In this document: piece after piece, positions 22,122 through 22,881 of the stretch
Layout of the letters: each line of letters starts with the position of its first letter
Position numbering within the stretch: the first letter of the stretch is position 1
From: Bacteroidales bacterium
GTDB taxonomy: Bacteria > Bacteroidota > Bacteroidia > Bacteroidales > UBA12170
Assembly (NCBI GenBank): GCA_021157585.1
Contig: JAGGWH010000127.1
Coordinates: 1-35,012 of the forward strand
Length of the DNA: 35,012 bases
Direction of reading: 5' to 3'
Translations under genes and position numbers: made by a program
The notes under the pieces: model-generated
What the model was told of the DNA's origin: nothing
What the model saw: the letters and a program-made list of their open reading frames with translations, nothing else
Database searches by the model: none

Positions 22122-22172
22122 TCTTGAGCGAGAAACGAGGCTTCCGTCAGCTGACAGACCACCTATAGCTTG
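22122..22172 (-). pseudogene. tRNA-Gly 3'-end remnant, copy 1
   Basis: This stretch matches the 3' end of tRNA-Gly (acceptor strand and the region beside the variable loop). The T arm is replaced by TCCGTCAGCTGACAGA, a slightly decayed palindrome. Its acceptor strand has also diverged (GCGAGAAACGAGG against GCGGGAGACGAGG). It lies exactly 125 bp from copy 2. No 5' half of a tRNA is present, so it cannot make a tRNA. Confidence 0.75.
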
Positions 22173-22247: not shown

Positions 22248-22294
22248 CTTGAGCGGGAGACGAGGCTTCCGTCAGCTGACGGACCACCTAAAGC
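22246..22294 (-). pseudogene. tRNA-Gly 3'-end remnant, copy 2
   Basis: The acceptor-side sequence GCGGGAGACGAGGCT is identical to the intact tRNA-Gly, as is CCACCTAAAGC on the other side. The T loop between them is replaced by the perfect palindrome TCCGTCAGCTGACGGA (22267-22282). It lies 127 bp from the intact gene and 125 bp from copy 1. It lacks a 5' half. Confidence 0.8.
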
Positions 22295-22342
22295 CAAAAC
22301 CCCAAAAACTATAAAACCAAAATAATGAAATGCTTGAAAAAT

Positions 22343-22377
22343 AAAAAGACCTCCAAGAAAAATCTTGAAGGTCTTTT
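22343..22377 (-). terminator. Terminator of the tRNA-Gly gene
   Basis: A 15-bp stem (AAAAGACCTTCAAGA with TCTTGGAGGTCTTTT on the minus strand, one G-U pair) begins 1 nt after the tRNA-Gly 3' end. Its descending arm is T-rich and followed by further T. It probably ends the Thr-Tyr-Gly transcript. Confidence 0.75.
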
Positions 22378-22378
22378 G

Positions 22379-22451
22379 AGCGGGAGACGAGGCTCGAACT
22401 CGCCACCTAAAGCTTGGAAGGCTTTCGCTCTACCAAATGAGCTACTCCCGC
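22379..22451 (-). tRNA. tRNA-Gly(UCC)
   Basis: A complete 73-nt cloverleaf. The acceptor stem GCGGGAG pairs with CTCCCGC. The anticodon loop reads CU-UCC-AA, for GGA and GGG-type codons. The T loop is TTCGAGC and the discriminator base is U, as normal for tRNA-Gly. CCA is not encoded. It is the third tRNA of a minus-strand cluster, 266 bp after tRNA-Tyr because two 125-bp repeats lie between them. Confidence 0.93.
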
Positions 22452-22460
22452 TGAATATTA

Positions 22461-22585
22461 TTTTTTGTAGGGAGAGGAGGATTACTCGCTACGCTCGTGA
22501 GACTCCGTGTTCGAACTTCCGAAGACTTAATGAGTCACAAACAAATCTGTTTCTCTTCTTTCCCTTTCGCATTAAATACAAGAAC
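22461..22585 (-). repeat. 125-bp tandem repeat ending in a tRNA-Tyr 3' end, copy 1
   Basis: This is the first of two 125-bp direct repeats, which differ at few positions (GTAGGG/GTGGGG, CCGAAG/CCAAAG). It contains the tRNA-Tyr 3' acceptor strand with part of the T arm, a 26-bp insert beginning ACTCGCTACGCTCGTGAG inside the T-arm region, a degraded variable arm (GACTCATTAAGTC) and a spacer. It cannot encode a working tRNA. Confidence 0.85.
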
Positions 22586-22710
22586 TTTTTTGTGGGGAGA
22601 GGAGGATTACTCGCTACGCTCGTGAGACTCCGTGTTCGAACTTCCAAAGACTTAATGAGTCACAAACAAATCTGTTTCTCTTCTTTCCCTTTCGCATTAA
22701 ATACAAGAAC
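22586..22710 (-). repeat. 125-bp tandem repeat ending in a tRNA-Tyr 3' end, copy 2
   Basis: The second 125-bp unit lies directly next to copy 1 and to the intact tRNA-Tyr, whose 3' end (22711-22733) continues the repeat for about 23 bp. Its tRNA-like tail TCCTCCTCTCCCC is identical to that of the real gene, and it carries the same insert in the T arm. Near-identity of the copies points to recent duplication or ongoing homogenisation. Confidence 0.85.
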
Positions 22711-22717
22711 TTTTTTG

Positions 22718-22799
22718 TGGGGAGAGGAGGATTCGAACCTCCGAAGGCTTAGCCAACAGATTTACAGTCTGCCCCGTTTGACCGCTCTGGAATCTCCCC
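22718..22799 (-). tRNA. tRNA-Tyr(GUA)
   Basis: An 82-nt class II tRNA with acceptor stem GGGGAGA/TCTCCCC, anticodon loop CU-GUA-AA, a long variable arm (GGCTAAGCC) and T loop TTCGAAT. The discriminator is A and CCA is not encoded. It begins 8 nt after the 3' end of tRNA-Thr and is followed by the two 125-bp repeats. Confidence 0.94.
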
Positions 22800-22807
22800 A
22801 AAAAAAG

Positions 22808-22881
22808 AGCCGATGGAGGGATTCGAACCCCCGACCAGCTGATTACAAATCAGCTGCTCTGACCAACTGAGCTACATCGGC
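22808..22881 (-). tRNA. tRNA-Thr(UGU)
   Basis: A 74-nt cloverleaf with acceptor GCCGATG/CATCGGC, anticodon stem CTGAT/ATCAG with loop UU-UGU-AA, and T loop TTCGAAT. The discriminator is U and there is no encoded CCA. It is first in the operon, about 25 nt after the predicted start from the promoter at 22913-22942. The order Thr-Tyr-Gly is common in Bacteroidota, where the cluster often continues to a second tRNA-Thr and tuf; here it stops. Confidence 0.94.

Follow-up and report, generated by a model that had tools for sequence, protein, structure and literature searches.

The window, as the whole stretch of 35,012 nucleotides analysed here is called, contains a cluster of intact genes for tRNA-Thr, tRNA-Tyr and tRNA-Gly. 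Since the tRNA genes are located on the minus strand, the cluster is transcribed in the sequence Thr-Tyr-unit A-unit B-Gly (Table 1). Immediately downstream of tRNA-Tyr, two copies of 125 nt each were identified which are 98% identical (22461-22585 and 22586-22710), and TRF reported a period of 125, 2.2 copies and a score of 532 for the repeat. A motif of the tRNA 3′ end recurs at 22467, 22592 and 22717, in the register of tRNA-Tyr itself. The recurrence of the repeats and of this motif is far beyond chance, and both had been described correctly in the initial annotation. There, the units were also placed on the tRNA precursor, which is probably the case, because no terminator is present in the sequence between Tyr and Gly.

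Table 1. tRNA genes, repeat units and partial tRNA copies in the cluster, listed in the order of transcription
Feature	Position	Strand	Basis or remark
tRNA-Thr (TGT), intact, first gene of the cluster	22807..22881	minus	ARAGORN
tRNA-Tyr (GTA), intact	22717..22799	minus	ARAGORN; Rfam 50.5 bits
Unit A, 125 bp: spacer and degenerate tRNA-Tyr 3′ half with T-loop insert	22592..22716	minus	
Unit A: degenerate variable arm, T-stem 5′ strand and TTCGAA of tRNA-Tyr	22635..22661	minus	sequence reading
Unit A: 28-nt T-loop insert, motif TCTCACGAGCGTAGCGAGTAA	22607..22634	minus	related to motif D
Unit A: final 15 nt of tRNA-Tyr, copied without mismatch, TCCTCCTCTCCCCAC	22592..22606	minus	
Unit B, 125 bp, built like unit A; 3′ end decayed to CCCTAC	22467..22591	minus	
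Unit B: 28-nt T-loop insert	22482..22509	minus	
Unit B: copy of the tRNA-Tyr 3′ end (15 nt), 1 mismatch	22467..22481	minus	
tRNA-Gly (TCC), intact	22378..22451	minus	ARAGORN
tRNA-Gly 3′-half copy 1	22251..22295	minus	palindrome at 22268-22283
tRNA-Gly 3′-half copy 2, decayed, period 125	22126..22171	minus	palindrome TCCGTCAGCTGACAGA at 22143-22158

Read on the minus strand, each Tyr unit starts with the spacer and continues with a worn tRNA-Tyr 3′ half (GACTCATTAAGTC TTYGGAAGTTCGAA), followed by the T-loop insert, CACGGAGTCTCACGAGCGTAGCGAGTAA, which is foreign to the tRNA, and by the true tRNA-Tyr 3′ end, TCCTCCTCTCCCC, which closes the unit. The homology to tRNA-Tyr extends beyond the 3′ end and includes the variable arm, the T-stem 5′ strand and TTCGAA, all of them degenerate. 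Judged by this composition, the units are defective back-halves of a tRNA-Tyr gene. The hairpin formed by the insert is weak (DNA fold z +1.3 to +2.2), and the longest perfect stem within a unit comprises only 4 bp. Downstream of tRNA-Gly, two further 3′-end copies are spaced 125 bp apart; in copy 1, the palindrome TCCGTCAGCTGACGGA takes the place of the T-arm 5′ strand and loop. Neither the Tyr nor the Gly units of the window contain a GIY-YIG ORF, and no recognisable ORF remnant was seen in the Tyr units.

On the plus strand, an open frame of 181 aa (22325-22870) runs antisense to the tRNA cluster and the repeats. It is likely to be spurious, with peptides of the RRGSNSPP and DSNPRP type. 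An assembly artefact is an unlikely source of the repeats, since related loci are present in independent genomes and ORF-bearing arrays were identified in single-contig genomes (for example, G204 and G222).

Related units in the source genome and its congeners

The search for the unit at other tRNA-Tyr loci, which had been suggested earlier, was successful. In the source genome, the second Thr-Tyr-Gly cluster (G000:C182, L007) contains one Tyr unit of this design, and in the congener G005 a sequence of 28 nt which is almost identical to the insert interrupts a tRNA-Tyr gene in its T-loop (L002). Further units are present at the loci L089, L144 and L158. The sites are empty in the congeners G001 and G010, and at the congener loci L003 and L010 Gly directly follows Tyr. 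The design is not confined to tRNA-Tyr: it was also identified for Gly, Val, Met, Ser, Pro, Arg, Asp, Asn, His, Ala and Thr. For the source genome, a tRNA census revealed 3′-end copies behind tRNA-Gly (the two in the window), tRNA-Val-TAC and tRNA-Met-CAT. The copy of the Val element carries a T-loop insert of the same kind as the Tyr units (CTCACGAACTTGTGAGTAATCC compared to CTCACGAGCGTAGCGAGTAATCC), and the tRNA-Met unit is of the multi-hairpin type described below. The 16-nt palindrome of Gly copy 1, TCCGTCAGCTGACGGA, is present in identical form in L290, a tRNA-Val element of another family that bears the ORF.

Two additional arrangements were noticed in other genomes. Behind the intact tRNA-Tyr of G008:C182 (L006), there are two apparent, strongly degenerate tRNA-Tyr copies. 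Upstream of tRNA-Gly in G010:C12 (L004), two copies of its 5′ end carry a palindrome-like insert, CCCGATCGTTATCGAG, in the D-loop; these are ORF-less and the mirror image of the 3′ copies.

A GIY-YIG nuclease ORF linked to tRNA genes

At tRNA-Val of the source genome, the gap between the tRNA and its copy is filled by an ORF for an 84-aa GIY-YIG protein (Pfam 9e-18). Three short free-standing GIY-YIG ORFs were identified in this genome, and all of them are located among altered tRNA copies, at Val (C66), Ala (C167) and Pro (C116). The GIY-YIG catalytic residues are kept in the family, with Y6, Y17, G19, R27, H31 and E63 being invariant. The family matched UPF0213 (1.1e-15), SLX1 (4.3e-6) and I-TevI (0.009), the first two being the best matches to solved structures. 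A phage origin of the family was considered and rejected, as the Val protein had no match in 50,697 phage records (E 1e-3) and none in IMG/VR.

The distribution of the family was analysed with the profile A2, built from ten members. It was seeded with ORFs that mostly adjoin tRNAs, so that the proportions describe the A2 subfamily. Matches to A2 were obtained in 124 of 247 genomes of the order and in 120 of 198 genomes of the phylum sample. In the order-level set, whose regions were mostly picked for holding arrays, the ORF has an intact tRNA no more than 450 nt away at 42 of 50 loci, usually 28-66 nt upstream and in the same orientation. When the tRNA is located at most 300 nt upstream (37 loci), the last 18 nt of the same tRNA, with up to 3 mismatches, were found again after the ORF in 27 cases; for the other isotypes, used as a control, this was the case in 0 of 846. 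In the phylum set, 22 of 29 ORFs follow an intact tRNA of the same strand at a distance of no more than 300 nt, compared to a chance level of about 0.5% of positions (binomial P ~1e-44), and the 3′ end of the same tRNA is copied after the ORF in 13 of these 22, versus 1 of 380 controls. Among the best PF01541 matches of the order, only 4 of 29 are near a tRNA, so the linkage is claimed for the A2 subfamily only.

The full element thus described consists of a spacer, often with a copy of the terminator, an ORF for about 85 aa (a GIY-YIG nuclease of the type of UPF0213/SLX1) and a repeat of part of the same tRNA. In the copied part, the T-arm or the anticodon arm has received a palindrome or hairpin, and as the copy ends in the true 3′ end, the tRNA proper is left intact. 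Arrays in which 2-6 ORF-bearing units follow each other in tandem with a period of 330-400 bp are common, also in single-contig genomes. In some genomes (G366, G461, G501, G222), 12-20 copies of the tRNA-linked family were counted. At two loci (L046, L080), the ORF is located upstream of the tRNA, and here the tRNA 5′ half is copied. A GIY-YIG ORF directly behind tRNA-Tyr was found at none of the loci checked.

Perfect palindromes with a length of 6 bp or more are present in 34 of 40 copies versus 10 of 40 intact tRNAs. The palindromes of the copies are mostly of the type TCC(C)G..CGGA and are located in the anticodon arm or the T-arm. When the units of the window were examined for a hairpin in either arm, the Gly units were found to carry the 16-nt palindrome, and the Tyr units the D-type T-loop insert with its thermodynamically weak hairpin.

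Loss of the ORF was observed at several stages. At the Val locus of G001 (L337), ATG-KYYFYI is directly followed by the tRNA copy, so that deletion of the ORF has left an ORF-less unit. Truncated ORFs are present after copies at L262, L263 and L269, and several arrays have a truncated ORF at their end. At tRNA-Met, one terminator represents the unoccupied arrangement in G001 (L342), and in the occupied arrangement of G000 (L185) a unit closed by the 3′ end of tRNA-Met stands between two copies of the terminator. The decay of the ORF, together with this occupied and unoccupied pair, indicates that ORF-less units are a natural end state, and both the Gly copies and the 125-bp Tyr units agree with it.

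Motif D and the multi-hairpin regions

The insert and the adjoining T-stem strand (TCACGAGCNNNGCGAGTNATCC, motif D) were used as a query on 84,980 genomes, and 89 stretches were obtained; among the matches listed with titles, 75 of 80 are labelled Bacteroidota. No match was found in viral contigs. Motif D is located within 400 nt downstream of a tRNA at 61 loci, at a distance of about 125-162 nt in 52 of these, and tRNA-Ser is the commonest neighbour. A relaxed motif, GGATCAC-N-GTAATCC, is present in 11 of 12 genomes, where the reversed pattern had no matches. Its usual distance downstream of a tRNA is 132-147 nt, or about 80 nt in the case of tRNA-Tyr, and its inner part is variable, yet often palindromic. 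To the right of the motif lies the 3′ end of the same tRNA, which is perfect at some loci, namely Ala (L100) and Val (L071, L112), and decayed at others. At tRNA-Arg (L155), two different units follow each other in series. In Altibacter lentus, a cultured relative, tRNA-Ser is accompanied by four units of 138 bp.

Directly behind tRNA genes of Bacteroidota, a recurrent multi-hairpin region of 135-160 nt was noticed (L024-L112; for example, L030:1992-2159 and L032:42-206, minus strand). Its order is an outer stem, the tRNA terminator, an arm with AAAGCTTGCTTT, a reverse-strand terminator, a C-rich spacer and motif D. At the mid-operon tRNA-Tyr loci (L089, L144, L158), both terminator hairpins are missing. 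For eight motif-D loci, an Rfam search identified tRNAs only. From 42 multi-hairpin loci, MAFFT and RNAalifold recovered the D hairpin alone, because loops and stems differ in length; in place of an alignment fold, complementarity was therefore compared within and between loci. At many motif-D loci, the mean pairing run of the outer arms is 12.3 within loci versus 6.3 between loci.

Origin of the Tyr units

The Tyr repeats are probably ORF-less members, either eroded or non-autonomous, of a group of selfish nuclease elements adjoining tRNA genes in Bacteroidota. These small GIY-YIG elements, spread over the whole phylum, look like a previously undescribed family; in openly licensed papers, nothing was found on the motif, and no relevant report on GIY-YIG together with a tRNA gene in Bacteroidetes. 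Since the units of the window are devoid of a GIY-YIG ORF, they are referred to as ORF-less relatives and not as full members. We infer their descent from ORF-bearing elements, given that the Tyr units retain no ORF remnant, and as no ORF was found directly behind tRNA-Tyr at the loci checked, the connection is made via the T-loop insert, the copy of the tRNA 3′ end and the Gly palindrome.

In the proposed mechanism, the GIY-YIG nuclease would break the DNA of the tRNA gene or of the hairpin, and units would then be spread, amplified or deleted when the tRNA recombines with its copies by homology. The enzyme would cut tRNA genes and the element would be mobile. The 125-bp Tyr units may have lost their ORF, or may be products of this recombination working in trans. 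The palindromes might either shield the copy from cutting or represent the branched DNA cut by an SLX1-like enzyme. SLX1 enzymes cut branched DNA, and hence the palindromes may serve as substrates and not as scars that protect the copy. It is conceivable, though less likely, that throughout the phylum a minimal, structure-directed SLX1-like nuclease cuts the planted hairpins, with tRNA genes serving as landing sites and ORF-less units being moved or amplified in trans. Against the proposed origin speak the lack of a GIY-YIG ORF directly behind tRNA-Tyr at the loci checked, the weak hairpin of the Tyr insert and the fact that the intact upstream tRNA keeps its sequence, despite the proposed cutting of tRNA genes.

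Tandem tRNA genes are prone to slippage and unequal crossing-over, and an ordinary duplication of the tRNA-Tyr 3′ half with its spacer, followed by decay, would also yield 125-bp units. The period, the 98% identity and the apparent degenerate tRNA-Tyr copies in G008 are consistent with this. However, for Tyr, Val, Met and Gly of the source genome, and also across the phylum, related inserts are found at one and the same place of the T-loop, two different units are arranged in series at tRNA-Arg, and ORF-bearing versions of the same design exist. A plain duplication is thus rather unlikely.

The multi-hairpin regions with their AAGCTTGCTT arm could form a separate ORF-less family which includes the Tyr units, apart from the GIY-YIG elements. 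Motif D is common to these regions and the Tyr units, the tRNA-Met unit of the source genome is of the multi-hairpin type, and the outer-stem complementarity within loci points in the same direction; the multi-hairpin units behind tRNA-Ser and other tRNAs may be a sister family instead of relics. The Tyr units, however, have neither terminators nor the AAGCTTGCTT arm. Motif D also closes GIY-YIG-bearing units (Val in the source genome; L276), from which it follows that the multi-hairpin and GIY-YIG groups may be one. We consider a separate origin of the Tyr units unlikely.

Elements with a tyrosine recombinase integrate at the tRNA T-loop, and their excision could leave units behind as att-site scars. 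As in such integrative elements, the tRNA 3′ end is duplicated and the tRNA is still functional, and the copied part, from the T-loop to the 3′ end, is the usual integrase target. An integrase-like gene (Pfam Phage_int_SAM_5) was noticed 76-119 nt behind the altered copy at tRNA-Val of the source genome (G000:C66, L164) and at tRNA-Ser of G294 (L018, L052). It is more likely that these two integrases used the tRNA copies as targets and not the real tRNA. Integrase genes were found behind these two copies only, none inside the units and none at the other loci inspected. The units are also much smaller, with 80-160 bp, or 330-400 bp with the GIY-YIG ORF. Moreover, several tRNA arms are affected: the homology reaches upstream of the T-loop, and some copies contain an anticodon-arm palindrome or the tRNA 5′ half (L080, L046). 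Integrase scars, raised by L018, were therefore rejected as a general reading and are improbable for the Tyr units.

In E. coli tyrT, tandem units behind tRNA-Tyr repeat the tRNA 3′ end (rtT, Rfam RF00391), and the initial annotation had regarded the Tyr units as a counterpart of these. The likeness in arrangement stands; however, the Bacteroidota copies have a T-loop insert, occur at many tRNA species, carry GIY-YIG ORFs and belong with the nuclease family, which indicates selfish DNA and not regulatory RNA. If the tRNA precursor were processed into a functional small RNA, as has been suggested for rtT, this would agree with units that separate Tyr from Gly in a probable operon free of terminators. 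Such an RNA is, however, very improbable, given an RtT score of 14.9 bits (E = 6.8) against a gathering cut-off of 45 bits, an RNA fold with no excess of structure over shuffles of the unit (z = -0.46), the empty sites in G001 and G010, and the decay of the copies.

By analogy, the closest known system and the best precedent is SegB, a free-standing GIY-YIG homing endonuclease located at tRNA genes in phages T4 and T6. In phage T6, a 718-bp unit of tRNA-Tyr and segB undergoes tandem amplification via homologous recombination (PMC13096335; PMC2988022). In both cases, the gene for a GIY-YIG enzyme adjoins tRNA genes. The Bacteroidota family is, however, chromosomal, and having no match in the phage records searched it was not assigned to the phage Seg lineage; its protein of about 85 aa is nearer to UPF0213/SLX1 than to I-TevI, and every unit includes a modified copy of part of a tRNA in which a palindrome is located, with cutting being presumed for the enzyme. 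A homing endonuclease element would retain the catalytic residues, as the family does, and would convert empty alleles after site-specific cleavage; at tRNA-Met, occupied and empty alleles were observed. With the minimal UPF0213/SLX1-like proteins, the family shares a stand-alone GIY-YIG domain with no extra domains, whereas SLX1 is a host repair enzyme. By a term search, no tRNA-linked, tandem, selfish members were found mentioned in the 2006 survey of the GIY-YIG superfamily (PMC1564403). REP sequences, GTAG- and CGTC-tagged palindromes and Rickettsia palindromic elements are short, gene-free and sometimes arrayed, according to the available part of the paper on CGTC-tagged REPs, in which a tRNA-linked family is not described (PMC3733652). 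In contrast to these, the Bacteroidota palindrome is located at fixed arms of tRNA copies, beside a GIY-YIG gene and with no RAYT.

If the proposed origin is correct, about half or more of the Bacteroidota genomes carry small nuclease elements built around tRNA genes, whose members have so far appeared in annotations only as stray GIY-YIG proteins. The elements would account for many tRNA fragments and tandem repeats, and a chromosomal counterpart of the SegB-driven tRNA amplification would be at hand. Whether a minimal SLX1-like nuclease acts as a selfish homing enzyme would then be a directly testable question.

In the congener G005, other GIY-YIG ORFs were additionally noticed between short repeats not derived from tRNA (CCCTGTGAAAT), apparently inside small protein genes (L205, L224). 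These ORFs apparently represent a different target class for the same type of enzyme.
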